Shown piece after piece: positions 26,514-35,629 of a stretch of DNA of 47,973 bases. A program made the position numbers and the translations under genes. Location: NCBI GenBank assembly GCA_021300015.1, contig JAJTFB010000035.1, forward strand, positions 1-47,973, given 5' to 3'. A model generated the notes under the pieces. It saw nothing but the letters and a program-made list of their open reading frames with translations. It ran no database searches and had not been told where the DNA came from. Source of the DNA: Pirellula sp. (lineage in GTDB: Bacteria > Planctomycetota > Planctomycetia > Pirellulales > Pirellulaceae). Each line of letters starts with the position of its first letter. The first letter of the stretch is position 1.

Positions 26514-26555
26514 CAGAGGGCCTTGGTCGAAAGATCAGGGCTCTCTGCGTTTTTT
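26514..26555 (+). terminator. Intrinsic terminator of the BON gene, overlapping the kinase 3' end
   Basis: A 15-bp stem (26514-26528 with 26533-26547; three G-U pairs in plus-strand RNA) is closed by a GAAA tetraloop (26529-26532) and followed by CG and six T (26550-26555). The wobble pairs and the tetraloop mark the plus strand as the functional one. The stop codon of the kinase gene on the minus strand (26535-26537) lies inside the hairpin. Confidence 0.88.
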
Positions 26556-28271
26556 CACCGTCAACGCAGGATCGCAAAATGGCCGTGCCGTCATCGCTTC
26601 TAGGGATCGACGCTGTCGATAGTACTTCAAGCCTGGGATAAAAAAGCAAAGGCCCGCGACTAGGGCAAAGATCAGATGAGCGATTGGGGGCCAGGCAAGC
26701 ATCGCTGCGGCCGATAAAAACAAACTGGCTGCTTGCAGATAGAACGCACCGCTGAGAATCCCGGCCTTGATGAAAAACATCATTCCGGTGATCACCGCCA
26801 GAAGTGGCGTGAGCGTCAGGGGATCGAGTTTGAGCCCCCACTCGACAGGGAAGAGTGCTCCAATGCCGATCATTGCCGCCCCCCAGACGTGGGCGATTTG
26901 ACGCTCGACAAACGTGACCGGTCCCATCCGTCGTCTCAAGGCCCAGAAGACCGCAGCCCAGCTCCCGAGCCCAACGGTCCAGAGTAGGGCATAGGAGAGT
27001 CGGCCGGCGTGATTCCATTGGAGAAGCTCGGTCAGCACACTTGCGATGACCAAGACCAGAGAATGCCACATCCAGAGCAACCCCCAGTTTTCTAGAACTG
27101 GAGCGTGATGGGTCTCGCGAAACCATCTTGCTACTACCTGTGCAAACTGACCAGACCTTGCAGAGATCGGCTCGTCGTTGAGATAGGCGCTCAGGTCCGA
27201 CGCAAGCTTCGCTGCGCTCGGGTACCGCAAATCCGGTGGTTTTTGAAGACACCGAACGAGAATCATCTCCAAGTCCCGATCGAGCTTGGGATTGAGCAAT
27301 CGAGGACTCGGTGGGTCTTGCTCCATGACCTGCAAGAGCATGTCCATGGTCGTCTTTGCGACAAAAGGAGGTCGACCGGTAAGAGCATGGTAGAGAACGG
27401 AGCCCAAACTGTAGACATCCGAGGCGGGGCTGATCTGTCCCATCCGTCCGCTGGCTTGTTCGGGACTCATGTAGCTGGGGGTTCCTAAGACCACTCCGGT
27501 GCGGGTGAGCGATTCTCCAGCGTCGGTGTGTTTGGCAAGTCCAAAGTCGGTCAATCGAGCTAGTCCTTCCGAATCGACCAGGATGTTCGATGGCTTGATA
27601 TCTCGATGTAACACGCCGTTTTGATGGGCAAAGTCGACGGCCTGAGCGATCATCTCGACAATTCGGACCGATTGACGATCGTCGATGGCCGACGCATTGA
27701 TCAGTTCCTGAAGGGTCCGTCCCTGGACATATTGCATGGCAAAGTAGGGACGACCTTCGATTTCGCCGACGTCGTAAACTGGCACGATACTCGGATGCTG
27801 AAGCTTGGCCGTCGCGCGTGCCTCTGCAAAAAAACGTTGACGCTCGGTATCCGACGCCAACTGGTCTTTGAGAATCATCTTGACGGCTACTTGGCGTCCT
27901 AGACTGATCTGTTCGGCGCGATAGACCACCCCCATACCACCGCGTCCGACTTCCTCGACCAAGCGGTAGTCGCCAAAGACGCAAGGAAGCGCCAACCGCC
28001 AAACATTGGAATCCCCCCCGGAAACCGATTCGGCCTTGTCCATGGAACGCACTTCATGACTGCCGATCGCATCGGTAACGATGATAGTACCCCAGAGGGC
28101 CTTGAGCTCCTGGGCCAATGCTGGATGCTGACGGCAAAGTGGATGCTCGCAACAGACTTGGTTCAAGTCGACGGCCTGGCCTTTTTGCAGTCGGTCGGTC
28201 AGCTCTGCGACCAACAAAGCCAAATTCTCGTCGACTTGTAAATCGTCAAGTTCCATCTCCTCGGCGTTCAT
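26535..28271 (-). CDS. Membrane Ser/Thr protein kinase (PknB-like)
   Basis: A 578-residue protein. An N-terminal helical region (1-98) precedes a Hanks-type kinase domain (about 101-365) with GRGGMG (109-114), catalytic Lys131, HRDIKPSN (222-229), DFG (242-244) and SPEQ activation-loop end (269-272). After residue 385 there are about six hydrophobic segments, so the C-terminus is a multi-pass membrane domain of unknown ligand. The start codon overlaps the stop of the ECF sigma gene (ATGA, 28268-28271), so both are translated from one mRNA. It probably phosphorylates or relays a membrane signal to the sigma factor; this is inferred from context. Confidence 0.9.
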   Translation of the reverse strand: MNAEEMELDDLQVDENLALLVAELTDRLQKGQAVDLNQVCCEHPLCRQHPALAQELKALWGTIIVTDAIGSHEVRSMDKAESVSGGDSNVWRLALPCVFGDYRLVEEVGRGGMGVVYRAEQISLGRQVAVKMILKDQLASDTERQRFFAEARATAKLQHPSIVPVYDVGEIEGRPYFAMQYVQGRTLQELINASAIDDRQSVRIVEMIAQAVDFAHQNGVLHRDIKPSNILVDSEGLARLTDFGLAKHTDAGESLTRTGVVLGTPSYMSPEQASGRMGQISPASDVYSLGSVLYHALTGRPPFVAKTTMDMLLQVMEQDPPSPRLLNPKLDRDLEMILVRCLQKPPDLRYPSAAKLASDLSAYLNDEPISARSGQFAQVVARWFRETHHAPVLENWGLLWMWHSLVLVIASVLTELLQWNHAGRLSYALLWTVGLGSWAAVFWALRRRMGPVTFVERQIAHVWGAAMIGIGALFPVEWGLKLDPLTLTPLLAVITGMMFFIKAGILSGAFYLQAASLFLSAAAMLAWPPIAHLIFALVAGLCFFIPGLKYYRQRRSLEAMTARPFCDPALTVKKRREP

Positions 28272-28924
28272 TCACGAATTTCCTTGTGGAGATTCGGGAG
28301 GCTTTCGATCACTTCTCTGAGTCGTTTGATTGCCCGGAGATACCGCATGCTCGCTGCGGGTTCGGAAAGACCCAAGGATTGGGCGATTTCCTGATTGTTG
28401 AGTTGTTCATAATGCCGCATGAGGATGATCTCTCGGTCCCCTTCTTTGAGTTGACCTATAGCCAACTCCATGTGGTAGGCAAGTTCTTTCTGCGTCGCAG
28501 CGGCCGCTGGGGTTAATCCTTGGTCTTTGAATTGGTTTGCCAACTCGATTGTGGAATTCTCATTCGAAGCAAATCCGATCGGGCCTTGTTCGCGATCGAT
28601 ACTCCTTTTGGCCGAGAGTCGATGGCGCCTGTGCGCATCGATAATTCGGTCCTTGGCGATTTGACGGATCCACAGATGGAAAGGAATGGTCGGTGTATTG
28701 ACGTAATCGACGAGCCTGCGGTTGGCCTCGATGAGGACGTCCTGGATGATATCGCTCACGTCGACTCGCTGGGCCAGCCGCTGGTCGAGTCGCATGGCGA
28801 TCATGCGTCGCAATGGATCTCGATGGCGATCTAAAAGCTCTTCGACCGCTTGGGGTTTGCCCTCGCGGACCTCGACAAGAAGTTCCGTGGTTGCTTGGCC
28901 TTCTGGCCAAATCGACTCTGACAT
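28268..28924 (-). CDS. ECF-type RNA polymerase sigma factor
   Basis: A protein of about 218 residues with sigma-70 region 2 (VDVSDIIQDVLIEANRRLVDY, then IPFHLWIRQIAKDRIIDAHR) and region 4 (LKEGDREIILMRHYEQLNNQ, then EIAQSLGLSEPAASMRYLRA). It has the planctomycete ECF style and no anti-sigma gene beside it; its partner is the overlapping kinase. ATG at 28924 is preferred over a GTG at 28948, but neither has a clear Shine-Dalgarno site. Confidence 0.9.
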   Translation of the reverse strand: MSESIWPEGQATTELLVEVREGKPQAVEELLDRHRDPLRRMIAMRLDQRLAQRVDVSDIIQDVLIEANRRLVDYVNTPTIPFHLWIRQIAKDRIIDAHRRHRLSAKRSIDREQGPIGFASNENSTIELANQFKDQGLTPAAAATQKELAYHMELAIGQLKEGDREIILMRHYEQLNNQEIAQSLGLSEPAASMRYLRAIKRLREVIESLPNLHKEIRE

Positions 28925-29123
28925 GTAGCTTCGGTAAGTTGCGCCCACCGTCCGCTTTTCTATAATCCTGCTAAAGTATTGCCTACGCAGTCTATTCTAG
29001 CGTCTCGTCGAGGGAACTCTGTGCATCCGGAGCGTCCCGAGTCGGGCAATAGGCCGCTTTACCCAGGATTTTTTAGAATTTCCAACAAAAGGCCCCGTTT
29101 CTCATTGGGCTCTGGGCCCCTGC

Positions 29124-29135
29124 GAAACTAGTTTC
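29124..29135. promoter_or_regulatory. Perfect 12-nt palindrome upstream of the HD gene
   Basis: GAAACTAGTTTC is self-complementary and lies 17 nt before the ATG at 29153, flanked by GGGC and GCCC a few bases out. It could be an operator or part of a short hairpin in the leader. No T-run follows it. Confidence 0.25.
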
Positions 29136-29152
29136 TAGCCCCCCGAACTCCT

Positions 29153-30462
<1,310 letters not shown>

Positions 30463-30466
<4 letters not shown>

Positions 30467-30491
30467 CAACACTCAGGTTGGAGAAAAGAAT
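30463..30491 (+). promoter_or_regulatory. Candidate sigma-70-type promoter for the cimA leader
   Basis: TTGACA (30463-30468) is separated by exactly 17 bp from AAGAAT (30486-30491). Transcription would begin near 30498, almost at the ATG of the leader ORF at 30500, making that ORF leaderless or nearly so. This fits the absence of a well-placed Shine-Dalgarno site. The -10 box is a 4/6 match. Confidence 0.5.
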
Positions 30492-30499
30492 TAGACCCC

Positions 30500-30556
30500 A
30501 TGCGAGTCCACTTTGTTTCAAATCGACCGATGATTATTATCCCCGAGCGCCGGTAG
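30500..30556 (+). CDS. Leader peptide with three consecutive Ile codons, upstream of cimA
   Basis: An 18-codon ORF, MRVHFVSNRPMIIIPERR, ending in TAG at 30554-30556. The Ile codons ATT-ATT-ATC are at 30533-30541. It sits between a promoter-like sequence and a terminator placed just before cimA, whose pathway makes isoleucine. Runs of codons for the end product are the hallmark of attenuator leader peptides (for example in enterobacterial ilv operons). An internal ATG at 30530 would give a shorter peptide, MIIIPERR, with the same Ile run. Confidence 0.6.
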   Translation: MRVHFVSNRPMIIIPERR

Positions 30557-30565
30557 GCCTTGGGG
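30555..30565 (+). promoter_or_regulatory. Putative antiterminator segment of the cimA leader
   Basis: AGGCCTTGGGG can pair with CCCCTGAAGCCT (30613-30624), the 5' arm of the terminator. I count four pairs, one mismatch, T-A and a T-G wobble, a one-base bulge and four G-C pairs. The segment overlaps the leader stop codon, so a terminating ribosome would cover it, while a ribosome stalled at the Ile codons would leave it free. Confidence 0.5.
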
Positions 30566-30610
30566 AGCGTTTCTTTTTAGAAACCAAGTCGCAACCAAAG
30601 TTTGCAACCC

Positions 30611-30649
30611 AACCCCTGAAGCCTGCCGCTTCAGGGGTTTTTTGTTTTT
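30611..30649 (+). terminator. Intrinsic terminator/attenuator directly before cimA
   Basis: AACCCCTGAAGC-CTGCC-GCTTCAGGGGTT is a perfect 12-bp stem with a 5-nt loop, followed by TTTTTTGTTTTT (30638-30649, the first two T being part of the stem). The T-run ends 16 nt before the cimA ATG (30666), which leaves no room for a promoter after it. cimA transcription must therefore pass through this terminator. Confidence 0.9.
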
Positions 30650-30665
30650 ACGACCAGCAAAAATC

Positions 30666-32258
30666 ATGCAAGAACGATCCATCCTCATCTACGACACAAC
30701 GCTCCGTGACGGTACCCAAGGCGAAGGAGTGAGCTTGTCCCTGCAAGACAAACTCAATATCGCTCAGAGGCTCGCAGAGATAGGTGTCGATATGATCGAA
30801 GGTGGATACCCTCTTTCGAACGAAAAAGACGCAATGTTCTTCCAAAAGGCCCGCCAGTTGAAGCTTGGTTCAAGCCAGCTCAGCGCTTTTGGAATGACCA
30901 GAAGACGCGGGATGAAATCCGCTGACGACCCAGGCATCGCCGCGCTGGTTGCTGCCCAAACCCCAGTGATCACCATCGTCGGAAAATCATGGGATTTCCA
31001 TGCGACGGAAGTCCTCGGTGTGAGCCTCCAGGAAAACCTCGATATGATCGGCGAAACCGTCGAGTACCTCTCGCGTTATGCGCAAATAGTCTACGACGCC
31101 GAACACTATTTCGATGGTTACCGGGCCAACCCTCAATACGCGCTTTCGGCAGTAGAGACTGCAGCCAGAGCCGGGGCCAAATGGATCGTCTTTTGCGATA
31201 CCAACGGAGGATCGCTTCCAGAACAAATTTCACAAGTCGTCAAAGACTCCAAAATCCGACTCGACCCGTTAGGGCCCCGGCTTGGTATCCATTGCCACAA
31301 CGATGGCGACCTTGCTACCGCCAACTCCCTCTCAGCAATCGATGCGGGTTGTGATCAAATCCAAGGCACCTTCAATGGGATCGGAGAACGTTGCGGAAAC
31401 GCCGATCTGGTCTGCGTGATCTCGAATCTTCAGTTCAAGAAGCAAGGCTACCGAATGCTGCGAGACGGTTCGCTCGAGCATTTGACCGAACTGTCACGCT
31501 ACATCTACGAAACGGCCAACTTGGTTCCACGCAACAGTCAGCCTTTTGTCGGCCGAAGCGCGTTTGCCCATAAAGGAGGTATGCATGTCCACGCCGTCAA
31601 TAAGTTCGCTCACACCTACGAACACATGAACCCAGAACATGTAGGAAACGAACGACGGATTCTGGTAAGCGAACTATCTGGACGATCGAATATCGCTGCG
31701 CTGACTCAAAAACATGGTGCCGACCAAGATCGATTGCTCTTGGATCGAATCCTTGAAAGTGTCGTGAAAAAGGAGAACCAAGGATACCAATACGAAGCAG
31801 CCGAAGCCTCCTTCGATCTTTTGGTCAAGCAATGCTCGGGGACCTACACACCGCACTTTGAAACCATCAAATACCAGATCCTCGCAGGTGATTTGGACAC
31901 ATCAAGAAACCAGCAATATGCAGAGGCGATCCTGAAGTTGAAAGTCGGACAGAATGTCTGCTTCGAAGCGGCCGAAGGCCATGGTCCTGTCAACGCCCTG
32001 GACGCCGCTTTACGCAAATCCCTAATCCGCTTCTTCCCAAGCATCGAGTCGATGCAGTTAGTCGACTACAAAGTCAGGGTCGTCAACGGAGAAGCAGGAA
32101 CAGCGGCAAGAATCCGAGTGAACATCGAAAGCTCCGATGAGAACCACTCCTGGCACACCATCGGTGTGAGCGAAAACATCATCGAGGCCTCCTGGGCCGC
32201 CTTGGTCGATGCTGTTGAGTACAAACTCCATCGAGACACCCAACGCACCGAAGGCTAA
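30666..32258 (+). CDS. cimA: Citramalate synthase CimA
   Basis: A 530-residue protein of the CimA/alpha-isopropylmalate synthase family. The catalytic motif DTTLRDGTQGEG starts at residue 10. Metal-binding GIHCHNDGDLATANS, the GTFNGIGERCGNADL motif and a C-terminal LeuA-type regulatory domain (about 400-525) follow. It condenses acetyl-CoA and pyruvate to (R)-citramalate, the first step of a threonine-independent route to isoleucine. ATG at 30666 is chosen because conserved sequence starts there (MQERSILIYDTTLRDG). Control by an isoleucine attenuator in the 5' leader is proposed from the sequence. Confidence 0.93.
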   Translation: MQERSILIYDTTLRDGTQGEGVSLSLQDKLNIAQRLAEIGVDMIEGGYPLSNEKDAMFFQKARQLKLGSSQLSAFGMTRRRGMKSADDPGIAALVAAQTPVITIVGKSWDFHATEVLGVSLQENLDMIGETVEYLSRYAQIVYDAEHYFDGYRANPQYALSAVETAARAGAKWIVFCDTNGGSLPEQISQVVKDSKIRLDPLGPRLGIHCHNDGDLATANSLSAIDAGCDQIQGTFNGIGERCGNADLVCVISNLQFKKQGYRMLRDGSLEHLTELSRYIYETANLVPRNSQPFVGRSAFAHKGGMHVHAVNKFAHTYEHMNPEHVGNERRILVSELSGRSNIAALTQKHGADQDRLLLDRILESVVKKENQGYQYEAAEASFDLLVKQCSGTYTPHFETIKYQILAGDLDTSRNQQYAEAILKLKVGQNVCFEAAEGHGPVNALDAALRKSLIRFFPSIESMQLVDYKVRVVNGEAGTAARIRVNIESSDENHSWHTIGVSENIIEASWAALVDAVEYKLHRDTQRTEG

Positions 32259-32260
32259 GC

Positions 32261-32662
32261 CTAGACATTTCGGTCGCGAAGTTTCGATTGCAGAGTCTTC
32301 CTCAATCCCACAATCTCCTCCGACGGCATCGCCGCAAGTTCCTCGCGGTTCTGCAATGGCAATTCGAGTAACTCCTGGAGCAACTGAATCCGGCCGATTT
32401 CCATGCCGATCAATTCGCCCTCCTGACGGCCCTCCTGACGGCCTTCCTGACGGCCTTCCTGACGGGCATCTATGAGATTGGATTCGTAGTCTAATAAGGC
32501 TTTTTCGCGTGAATCGTACATCTCTTTCTCCTCGGTAATCGCCTGAATTCCACTCAACTCGCTCGTCGCCTGCAAAAACTCAAGACCAGGCAATAGCTCT
32601 CTTAACTCTTCCTCGGTGTGCCGATCAGCATTTTTGATCCAATAGCACCATTTCCTCGACAT
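32261..32662 (-). pseudogene. C-terminal remnant of an Rpn/PD-(D/E)XK transposase-like protein
   Basis: About 132 residues from ATG 32662. They match the C-terminal part of Rpn-family (recombination-promoting nuclease/putative transposase) proteins: MYDSREKALLDYESNLIDAR, four QEGR repeats and a leucine-rich end (GRIQLLQELLELPLQNREEL). The N-terminal PD-(D/E)XK nuclease half, normally about 150-180 residues, is missing: upstream sequence in this frame shows no family features. It is most likely a decayed copy. It ends 3 nt after the cimA stop on the opposite strand. Confidence 0.7.
32418..32466 (-). repeat. 12-bp tandem repeats encoding QEGR
   Basis: On the plus strand the unit reads CTTCCTGACGGC (with C/T changes) four times; on the coding strand it gives (R)QEGR repeats. 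QEGR-type repeats of variable number are common in the C-termini of the Rpn family. Confidence 0.85.
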
Positions 32663-32773
32663 GCGTGTTACTCCTAGTTGCCACAAGCATTCAAAATTCT
32701 CATCCAGGCCCTAAGCGGCACTATCCGACCCCCGGAAGAGTATACTGGTAGTGCCCTAACCTAAGCCCATCCT

Positions 32774-35629
32774 ATGCGCAAAAAAACAACCACAATCTAC
32801 TTCCGACCTCGCTTGAAAATACCTCTACTTGGGAACGCAGTCTTGCTGGCCGCGGTCTTGGCCCTTATGGCCAATTCGCTCGTCGCTCAAAGCCCAGCGG
32901 AACTTGCACCTTCCAAAGTCAAGTCCATCGATTTCCTAACCGATGTCCTCCCAATCCTCGATCAACACTGCTCGAACTGCCACGGTGCTAGCAAACAGAC
33001 TGCCGACCTTCGTCTCGATCTCCGGTCTGCTATCCTCAAAGGAAGCAACAGCGGACCAATTGTCGAAAAAGGGCACAGCGAACAGAGCCGTCTGATCCAA
33101 GTCGTAGCAGGCCTAGATCCAGACTACCAAATGCCGCCCGAGGGGGACCGCTTGTCACCCGAGCAAATCGGTATCCTAAAAGCCTGGATCGACTCTGGAG
33201 CCATGGGACCCGAGGACTCATCGCTTCTGGAAAAACCGCTCCCGTGGAGTTTTCGACCCCTTCGAGTACCCAAACCGCCCGAGAACGCACCCCTAGCCGA
33301 TTCAAAAAGTCTCGGGATCATCGACGCATGGCTCGCCGGCCCCCTTGCTGAAAAACAACTCGAATTTTCCCAACGCGCTGACCCTCAGACTCTCATCCGT
33401 CGATTATTCCTCGTAGCACTAGGTGTTCCTCCAACCCCTGAAGAAGTGGAGAGGTTCGCCAGCGACTCGTGTGTCGACGCCTACGAGCAACTCGTCGATC
33501 GAGTCCTTGCCGATCCTCGCTACGGCGAACGGCAGGCGCGTCACTGGTTTGATGTCATCCGCTTTGCCGAATCCAACGGATTCGAAACCAACCGAGTTCG
33601 ATACAACGCTTGGCCCTACCGAGATTATGTAATCGCTGCGTTCAATGACGATAAACCTTACAACCAATTCGTCAAAGAACAAATCGCCGGCGATGCCCTC
33701 GGTGCTGACGTCGCAACGGGCTTCCTGGTCGCCGGTTCCTATGACATAGTCAAAAGCCCTGATGTCAACCTAACCTTAATGCAACGACAGGATGAACTGG
33801 CTGATTTGATCAATACCACCGGTACAGCTTTCCTAGGCTTGACCATCGGATGCGCCCGTTGCCACGATCACAAGTTCGATCCGGTGACCCAGAAGGATTT
33901 CTACTCGCTCCAAGCCATCTACGCGGGAGTCCAATTCGGCGAACGACCGATTCCCACCGAACAAACCCCAGAAAAACTTCAACGTCTCGTACACATCGAT
34001 TCGGCACTTGCGTCGATCAAACCCAACCTGCAAACCCTCAAAGACAAGGCCCAAAAGGTCGCGCTCACCCGCAAGACCCTTCCACCGATCAACTCTAAAC
34101 TGAACCTAGAGTCCTTCGAACCGACCCTCACCAAATCCGTTCGTTTCACCATCGAAGCCTCCGGAGGCTCACAACCTTGCATCGATGAATGGGAAATCCT
34201 CGACGCCAACGGAAACAACGTCGCACTTGCGACTCGAGGAGCAAAAGCAAAAGCCTCAAGCACTCTTGCGGGTTTCCCAATCCATCAACTCGAACACATC
34301 AACGATGGGAAAACCGGAAACTCCCATAGCTGGATCTCCAACCAAACCGACGGAGGTTGGATTCAAATCGACTTCGAGCAACCCCAGACCATCTCCCAAA
34401 TGCGATGGGGACGTGATCGCTCCGAGCAATTCCAAGATCGGACTCCTTCGAAATACCAAATCGAAGCACTTGTCGAAAACGATCGATGGAAAACGATCGC
34501 CTCAGACCTGGGACATACGAGTTTTTCGGCCGACAGCATCGATGGAGTAACCCAGTTCTTAGATACCGATGAAAAAGCAACTTACATCGAACTCTTCGAA
34601 CAAGAAAGAAAATGGAAATCCGAGAAAAAATCGCTCACCCAAGGCCCCAACGCTTGGATCGGGACATTCTCTAGCCCAGGGACCATCCATCGACTCTATC
34701 GAGGCGATCCACTCTTGAAACGAGAAACTGTCCCCCCGGCAATGGTCGCTTCCCTCAACGGCCCCGAACTTCAAGAGGATTCCCCCGAGCAATCACGCCG
34801 ACTGGCCCTGGCTTCCTGGATCGTCGATCCACAAAACCCACTGACTCCAAGAGTCGTCGCCAACCGAATGTGGCACTACACGTTTGGTACCGGAATCATC
34901 GATACACCAAGCGACTTCGGTGCCAATGGCACACCACCGATGCACCCCGAATTGATCGATTCACTCGCCACAAGCCTGATCGAACAGGATTGGTCACTCA
35001 AGCAACTCCATCGTTCGATGCTGATCTCCCAAGCCTTCGTCCAGTCCTCAAAACCTCATCCCCAAGCCCTTGCTCTAGACGCGGATGCTCGACTCCTCTG
35101 GAGATATCCGCCCCGAAGACTCGAAGCCGAATCGATTCGCGACAGCATGCTCGTTGCCTCGGATGTCATCGACTATCGCATGGGTGGACCCGGGTTCTTC
35201 TTGCAACGTGTCGAACCAGACAACGTCTACCGCTACTTTCCCAAAGAACAAGTCGGTCCTCCCGAGTTTCGACGCATGGTCTACCTGACCCGCATTCGGC
35301 AAGAACAGGACCCGGTCTTCGGCGCGTTCGATTGCCCAAGCGGCAACCAAGTGGTACCCAAACGCCCCCGATCCAATACCCCACTGCAATCCCTGAACCT
35401 GTTCAACAGCCCCTTCGTTATCCAGCAAGCCGAACGATTCGCCGAACGCTTGCTTCGCGACGCAGGACAAAACTCCGATGATCAAATCAACTTGGCATTC
35501 CGAATCCTTTTCGCCCGACAGCCAGATGCACACGAAGTCGAACTTTCCAAGGACATGATCCAAAGCCAAGGCACTGTGCCATTTTGCAGAGCCCTCCTAA
35601 ATGCCAGCGAATTTCTGTTTGTATTTTAA
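32774..35629 (+). CDS. PSCyt1/DUF1549/DUF1553 giant exported protein with F5/8C-like domain
   Basis: A 951-residue protein. Signal peptide (about 1-38), PSCyt1 domain with CSNCH at about 65-69, DUF1549 (about 175-390) with CARCH near 360, an F5/8 type C (discoidin)-like domain (about 447-575; SVRFTIEASGGSQPCIDEWE, HINDGKTG, WIQIDFEQPQTISQMRWGRD), and DUF1553 (about 670-950) ending LLNASEFLFVF. The discoidin-like domain probably binds carbohydrate. It is followed after 18 nt by a DUF1501 gene, the usual partner. Compare the first giant (2815-6312), which has a LamG-like insert instead and no DUF1501 neighbour. Confidence 0.92.
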   Translation: MRKKTTTIYFRPRLKIPLLGNAVLLAAVLALMANSLVAQSPAELAPSKVKSIDFLTDVLPILDQHCSNCHGASKQTADLRLDLRSAILKGSNSGPIVEKGHSEQSRLIQVVAGLDPDYQMPPEGDRLSPEQIGILKAWIDSGAMGPEDSSLLEKPLPWSFRPLRVPKPPENAPLADSKSLGIIDAWLAGPLAEKQLEFSQRADPQTLIRRLFLVALGVPPTPEEVERFASDSCVDAYEQLVDRVLADPRYGERQARHWFDVIRFAESNGFETNRVRYNAWPYRDYVIAAFNDDKPYNQFVKEQIAGDALGADVATGFLVAGSYDIVKSPDVNLTLMQRQDELADLINTTGTAFLGLTIGCARCHDHKFDPVTQKDFYSLQAIYAGVQFGERPIPTEQTPEKLQRLVHIDSALASIKPNLQTLKDKAQKVALTRKTLPPINSKLNLESFEPTLTKSVRFTIEASGGSQPCIDEWEILDANGNNVALATRGAKAKASSTLAGFPIHQLEHINDGKTGNSHSWISNQTDGGWIQIDFEQPQTISQMRWGRDRSEQFQDRTPSKYQIEALVENDRWKTIASDLGHTSFSADSIDGVTQFLDTDEKATYIELFEQERKWKSEKKSLTQGPNAWIGTFSSPGTIHRLYRGDPLLKRETVPPAMVASLNGPELQEDSPEQSRRLALASWIVDPQNPLTPRVVANRMWHYTFGTGIIDTPSDFGANGTPPMHPELIDSLATSLIEQDWSLKQLHRSMLISQAFVQSSKPHPQALALDADARLLWRYPPRRLEAESIRDSMLVASDVIDYRMGGPGFFLQRVEPDNVYRYFPKEQVGPPEFRRMVYLTRIRQEQDPVFGAFDCPSGNQVVPKRPRSNTPLQSLNLFNSPFVIQQAERFAERLLRDAGQNSDDQINLAFRILFARQPDAHEVELSKDMIQSQGTVPFCRALLNASEFLFVF

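Follow-up and report, generated by a model that had tools for sequence, protein, structure and literature searches.

A putative isoleucine attenuator upstream of cimA in Pirellula and the recurrence of its pattern among planctomycetes

The ilv, leu, thr, trp and his leaders of Escherichia coli are ribosome-mediated attenuators. This type of attenuation constitutes the classical mechanism of amino acid operons according to the accessible part of PMC1183508, in which theory also holds that the choice of the regulatory codon sets the sensitivity of the response. Candidate leader peptides with Ile, Val and Leu codons have been described before ilvB in Actinobacteria, although codon substitution in the ilvB leader of Streptomyces coelicolor was without effect (PMC1262725, accessible part). 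As of 2010, the only groups from which leader-peptide systems had been reported were said to be Proteobacteria and Actinobacteria, to which bacilli were then added with the histidine leader peptides that precede hisS and hisZ paralogues (PMC2965389); the accessible text of the same paper does not mention planctomycetes, Rhodopirellula, Pirellula or citramalate. Planctomycete leader genes have been treated, in the part of PMC4833913 that is accessible, with regard to reinitiation at short distance. A literature search at the level of titles and abstracts, covering few subscription journals, found no report of such attenuation for cimA or for planctomycetes, in line with the first-pass annotation of the DNA considered here, which knew of no described leader of this kind for a planctomycete cimA.

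The DNA in question comes from Pirellula sp. (assembly GCA_021300015.1, contig JAJTFB010000035.1) and is called the window in its whole length of 47,973 nucleotides. The features of the region around the start of cimA are as follows.

29153-30466, + strand: HD-domain-like gene upstream of the leader, with weak dGTPase similarity below cut-offs
30463-30491, + strand: sigma-70-like promoter TTGACA-17-AAGAAT, with 10/12 matches in a consensus scan
30500-30556, + strand: leader ORF of 18 codons plus TAG, MRVHFVSNRPMIIIPERR, recognized from the sequence and the family comparison
30533-30541, + strand: putative regulatory codons ATT ATT ATC, 7, 6 and 5 codons ahead of the leader stop
30541-30565, + strand: predicted 1:2 hairpin (CCCCGAG.GCC ggta GGCCTTGGGG), -17.6 kcal/mol
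30551-30565, + strand: predicted antiterminator strand 2, CGGTAGGCCTTGGGG, which includes the leader stop codon and forms a duplex with 30613-30628
30569-30584, + strand: small hairpin GTTTC-TTTTTA-GAAAC in the linker that separates the antiterminator strands, present also in the closest relatives
30611-30649, + strand: intrinsic terminator with a 12-bp stem (30611-30622/30628-30639), a loop of 5 and a T-rich tail, -20.9 kcal/mol
30613-30628, + strand: predicted antiterminator strand 3, CCCCTGAAGCCTGCCG, in the terminator 5' arm and loop
30666-32258, + strand: cimA, (R)-citramalate synthase, TIGR00977 at 655.7 bits (cut-off 450)

This arrangement resembles classical attenuators in combining a short ORF rich in end-product codons, alternative antiterminator and terminator structures and a biosynthetic gene downstream (PMC1183508, accessible part), whereas it differs from them in that it would control cimA, in Planctomycetota, and in that its regulatory Ile codons are mostly AUU though cimA prefers AUC. 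With the actinobacterial ilvB leaders it shares branched-chain codons in the leader ORF and a candidate terminator, but there the codons overlap the terminator hairpins, while here a separate antiterminator is predicted at the stop codon (compare the accessible part of PMC1262725). That system also concerns a different gene and phylum, and the ilvB upstream regions of relatives of the window have one terminator and no leader in 26. As with the histidine leaders of bacilli, we deal with probable attenuation outside Proteobacteria and Actinobacteria, those leaders differing in amino acid, gene and phylum (PMC2965389, accessible part). The mechanism is known, and what is new within the literature searched is the phylum and the target gene.

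The elements that the first-pass annotation had read in this region are present in the sequence: the TTGACA-17 bp-AAGAAT promoter at the stop of the HD gene, the 18-codon ORF with ATT ATT ATC, and a perfect 12-bp terminator stem followed by a T-run ending 16 nt before cimA. The promoter, with TTGACA at 30463 and AAGAAT at 30486-30491, overlaps the stop of the HD-domain-like gene and is the sole promoter-like site that the consensus scan finds on the + strand within 28000-34000. The leader ATG at 30500 follows its -10 hexamer by eight bases, the stop codon TAG occupies 30554-30556, and the T-rich tail of the terminator reaches 30649, the ATG of cimA being at 30666. The pairing that had been claimed between AGGCCTTGGGG (30555-30565) and 30613-30624 is also found, but its extent was underestimated: the predicted duplex joins 30551-30565 with 30613-30628, beginning three bases 5' of the leader stop codon. 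This duplex amounts to -22.7 kcal/mol, and none of 300 partner shuffles is equally stable. Together, the cluster of end-product codons, the terminator, the predicted antiterminator at the stop codon and the position of cimA in the isoleucine pathway provide features of an attenuator.

The best explanation is that a ribosome-mediated transcription attenuator controls cimA in response to charged isoleucyl-tRNA and, in many relatives, perhaps to valyl-tRNA as well; we assign this reading, which is drawn from sequence comparison, a probability of roughly 0.88. Transcription would start near 30498, and a ribosome would follow on the leader ORF. When isoleucyl-tRNA is scarce, the ribosome would stall on ATT ATT ATC with its front edge, taken from the usual footprint as about 13 nt past the A site, short of antiterminator strand 2, which would be free to pair with strand 3; the terminator would then be blocked and cimA transcribed. 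When isoleucyl-tRNA is ample, the ribosome would instead reach and cover the stop codon inside the antiterminator strand, and the terminator would form. In the window, the 1:2 hairpin would hide the antiterminator strand when the ribosome is absent, and would make termination the default without translation.

Folding predictions for the window follow this scheme while adding a qualification. Before the 3' arm of the terminator is made, its 5' arm is predicted to be 58% paired when the ribosome stands at the first Ile codon, 6% when it stands at the stop codon and 24% when it is absent. At equilibrium, by comparison, the terminator prevails in the full-length RNA whatever the state (0.91 to 0.96), the stalled one included (0.91), so that the switch must be kinetic. 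Among the 84 leaders of the family comparison given below, a switch between the stalled and the stop-codon state is predicted in 53 and the reverse in one, whereas 30 have no clear predicted switch, 15 of them being high and 15 low in both states; the rate of 63% compares with 30% after shuffling the stretch between the stall site and the terminator. Across the same 84 leaders, the predicted mean sequestration of the terminator arm is 0.65 in the stalled state and 0.56 without ribosome. Because sequestration of the arm still averages 56% when the ribosome is absent, the 1:2 hairpin seems not to be general in the family, even if 81.4% of its cells are paired in the genus alignment.

This evidence must be set against what a single stretch of DNA can yield by accident. 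The window has 3 promoter-like sites versus 3.4 expected in shuffles and 6 terminator-like sites versus 6.3, hence no excess of either, and since such sites are no commoner than in shuffled sequence, the case rests on comparison. Sites at chance frequency, and an HD-domain-like gene that ends just upstream on the same strand, are what one would expect if an ordinary terminator of the upstream gene stood beside a chance ORF, with cimA transcribed independently; yet conservation lies far above shuffles, and flank windows have 6 terminators but no leader in 197. Moreover, the gap between terminator and cimA has no promoter-like site in the consensus scan of the window, as the first-pass annotation had maintained, and its conclusion, that the terminator has a role beyond the upstream gene, agrees with the crude finding that the upstream ORF (at least 150 codons) lies on the opposite strand in 17 of 38 resolved loci, out of 74 examined. 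We consequently regard the chance explanation as very improbable.

The comparison in favour of the attenuator encompasses the family Pirellulaceae, in which cimA was found at E <= 1e-150 in 114 of 149 genomes. The usable upstream regions from named loci and family genomes numbered 185, of which 167 were distinct, and 130 of these formed the Pirellulaceae set: the named loci L003-L041, whose family membership is assumed, plus L083-L191. Dropped before the counts were a duplicate of the window (L001), two loci with only 17 and 88 nt upstream (L007 and L065) and three partial gene matches (L038, L056, L067), while near-identical upstream regions were merged. Also left out of the family counts were G001 and G025, with genes at contig ends, and the later loci L285, which has a terminator without a qualifying ORF, and L286, which is leader-like. 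Of the 130 distinct regions, 110 have a terminator within 330 nt that is at least as stable as -10 kcal/mol and 20 have none, the latter condition extending to a whole genus of the family, g45, with five loci (L108, L115, L121, L149, L150). An Ile-rich short ORF, defined by 2 neighbouring Ile or 3 within 6 residues and by an end at most 170 nt before the terminator, precedes it in 84/110 regions versus 6.7 expected in dinucleotide shuffles; the other 26 hold no ORF so defined, though two of them visibly have leaders (L018 with IMI, L024 with ITI). In 68 of the 109 testable regions (1.55 expected), the stop of the Ile-rich ORF coincides with the site that best complements the terminator 5' arm. 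When the strands of these 68 loci are swapped among loci, the own pairs average -19.9 kcal/mol and the swapped ones -16.3, and 0/20000 permutations reach the own value; swap test and shuffles alike take no account of relatedness among loci. These three comparisons lend support to the original reading, in which low isoleucine stalls the ribosome and frees the antiterminator for the expression of cimA, a function that we infer.

The 84 leaders have a median length of 25 codons, and their stop lies at a median of 35.5 nt before the terminator. In 80 of them the cluster's last Ile precedes the stop by 5 codons or more, and therefore a stalled ribosome would leave the antiterminator strand free. 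Promoter-like sites with at least 9/12 matches precede 61 of the 84, and in 11 of these 61 the ATG stands 6-9 nt past the -10 hexamer: the window, L003, L004, L005, L026, L029-L031, L100, L104 and L119. The leader RNA may be nearly leaderless in this subset, as judged from consensus sites, whereas in L006, which is close to the window, the distance is 36 nt. In four loci (L133, L136, L138, L191) the leader is long and its Ile codons form several clusters, as in MSQIGNIVIENIITAGIIIPVRVVSNVIIAT, which might serve multi-step sensing.

At the level of the genus, we aligned 21 rows picked because their leader was visible; the stop-codon strand and the terminator are present in them by choice. Three consecutive Ile codons occur in 16 of these rows, the others reading IIS (L008), VII (L020), IMI (L018) and ITI (L024, L086), while in five named near relatives (L012, L019, L021, L033, L037) no leader was seen. 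The terminator helix is 95.6% paired in the 21 rows, and neither this helix nor the 1:2 hairpin has covariation above shuffles; swapping the antiterminator strands of 12 distinct pairs gave a modest result (384/20000). Because covariation within the genus is weak, we relied on the family-wide swap test. The conservation anticipated by the first-pass annotation is accordingly borne out for the most part: the antiterminator pairing is sustained by the family swap, while covariation in the genus is weak, and the Ile run persists in the genus rows and as Ile-richness in the 84 family regions, but not as a fixed peptide.

A covariance model was run on 27 genus genomes, in each of which 138 of some 600-1400 candidates were scored; it detects the element in 24 and misses it in G153, G160 and G334. 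The best match adjoins cimA in 23 of the 24 positive genomes and lies at a contig end in one; one of the 24 (G136, locus L310) has the terminator without Ile run. No convincing second gene with the element emerged among the candidates scored. Two weak matches away from cimA (L313, L316) were read and look like chance, a third is G149:C20 with E 0.0075, and six further ones are antisense overlaps of the cimA site. In L017, as in L310, the terminator upstream of cimA is kept without the Ile run, perhaps as a decayed attenuator.

What, then, does the leader sense? When ORFs are chosen only by the position of their stop relative to the duplex, without any Ile criterion, the stop lies at the duplex in 80/109 regions (20.7 expected), and the last 18 residues contain 18.1% Ile versus 4.9% in the null, a 3.7-fold enrichment, and 11.0% Val versus 5.4%, a 2.1-fold enrichment, whereas Leu is depleted (3.5% versus 8.0%). 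Since Ile and Val are enriched and Leu is depleted, the signal of the leader is Ile with Val, not Leu. Isoleucine as the sensed signal is thus retained from the first-pass annotation, but taken alone it may be too narrow, since Val codons may contribute as well. Peptide sequences vary across the family and yet remain rich in Ile and Val, with the stop on the antiterminator. This bears on a different possibility, that a metabolite-dependent arrest of the ribosome by its nascent peptide, for example IIIP, operates the hairpins described above; the frequent IIIPxxx-stop of the genus rows could be adduced for it. We consider it highly improbable, given that the peptides of other genera are quite different and share mainly Ile and Val codons, and that the Pro codon belongs to the 1:2 hairpin (CCCC with GGGG). 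Less probable still is that the ORF plays no part and the leader is a T-box, a riboswitch or a protein-binding element; a conserved terminator with an alternative helix is indeed what such elements have, but Rfam, the T-box model included, gave zero matches at the gathering score in the window and 17 relatives, and the conserved features are coding content, stop position and Ile spacing. Four sub-gathering Rfam matches in the window, the best at 14.9 bits against a cut-off of 39, look like chance.

Codon choice for Ile also differs between leaders and cimA. The 84 leaders have 258 ATT, 103 ATC and 13 ATA among their Ile codons, and in the 34 loci with cimA sequence the ratio ATT:ATC is 90:39 in the leaders versus 258:702 in cimA (odds ratio 6.3, p about 5e-21, the related loci not being independent), with the bias agreeing in 31/34 loci. 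Val codons have no such bias, GTT accounting for 46/229 in the 84 leaders versus 273/1380 in cimA of the 34 loci. The preference for AUU could be explained by tuning of sensitivity or by avoidance of pairing, and the opposite biases of leader and cimA offer a test case for the theory of regulatory-codon sensitivity (PMC1183508, accessible part).

To look beyond the family we used a sample of the phylum, in which 58 of 159 genomes have cimA at E <= 1e-120. It gave 53 usable regions outside the family; L230, L285 and L286, which belong to the family itself, were not counted, nor were L275, which is short, and G242 and G278. A terminator occurs in 13 of the 53, and an Ile-rich ORF whose stop falls at the duplex in 10 (0.4 expected), L233 and L234 among these ten having the same peptide. 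Among 38 named distant loci, which may overlap in species with this sample, a terminator occurs in 7 and the complete pattern in 4 (0.25 expected); one of the four, L069, is a Phycisphaerales record. The predicted cimA leader pattern is recurrent in other planctomycete families. In a locus of Omnitrophota (L070), the Ile-rich ORF MTHTIEIIGIIIGQGGPGPMP precedes a strong terminator upstream of cimA, which suggests similar control outside Planctomycetota, though the best duplex there lies away from the stop. In the window's genome, the upstream region of leuA was looked over by eye only.

The importance of cimA in these organisms was approached through IlvA, the threonine deaminase. No match above the TIGR01127 or TIGR01124 cut-offs occurs in 17 of 19 genus genomes, whereas G105 and G158 pass that of TIGR01124; these cut-offs are strict, being passed in 5/14 and 2/14 control genomes. 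Given this strictness, and a sub-threshold match of 166.9 bits to TIGR01127 in the window's own genome, which is about 81% complete, the evidence for CimA as a main entry to isoleucine in this genus is only suggestive. A link between the presence of IlvA and the loss of Ile codons, prompted by G105 (ITI, IlvA present), was abandoned, because IlvA is present in G158 too and the leader there reads IIII.

In functional terms, a conserved attenuator would, if true, extend leader-peptide attenuation to a phylum and a target gene that are new within the literature searched. It also bears on the coupling of transcription and translation, because this kind of attenuation works only if a ribosome follows RNA polymerase closely. 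For Gemmata obscuriglobus it has been suggested that the two processes are spatially separated (PMC5394234, PMC6212462, accessible parts, citing Gottshall 2014); the attenuator, if true, would provide genomic evidence for coupled transcription and translation in these planctomycetes, where separation had been proposed, and makes coupling testable in Pirellulaceae. The broader proposition that cimA attenuation is widespread, possibly ancestral in Planctomycetota, AUU-tuned and indicative of coupling, with a nearly leaderless leader perhaps in the clade of the window, is one on which we are evenly divided.

Two other observations concern the neighbourhood of cimA in the window. On the - strand, 26535-28948 has a serine/threonine kinase gene adjoining an ECF sigma factor of the Planctomycetaceae-specific family TIGR02984, whose cut-off it exceeds, and downstream of cimA, convergent with it, lies an ORF (32261-32686, - strand) with a short tandem repeat reading RQEGRQEGRQEG.
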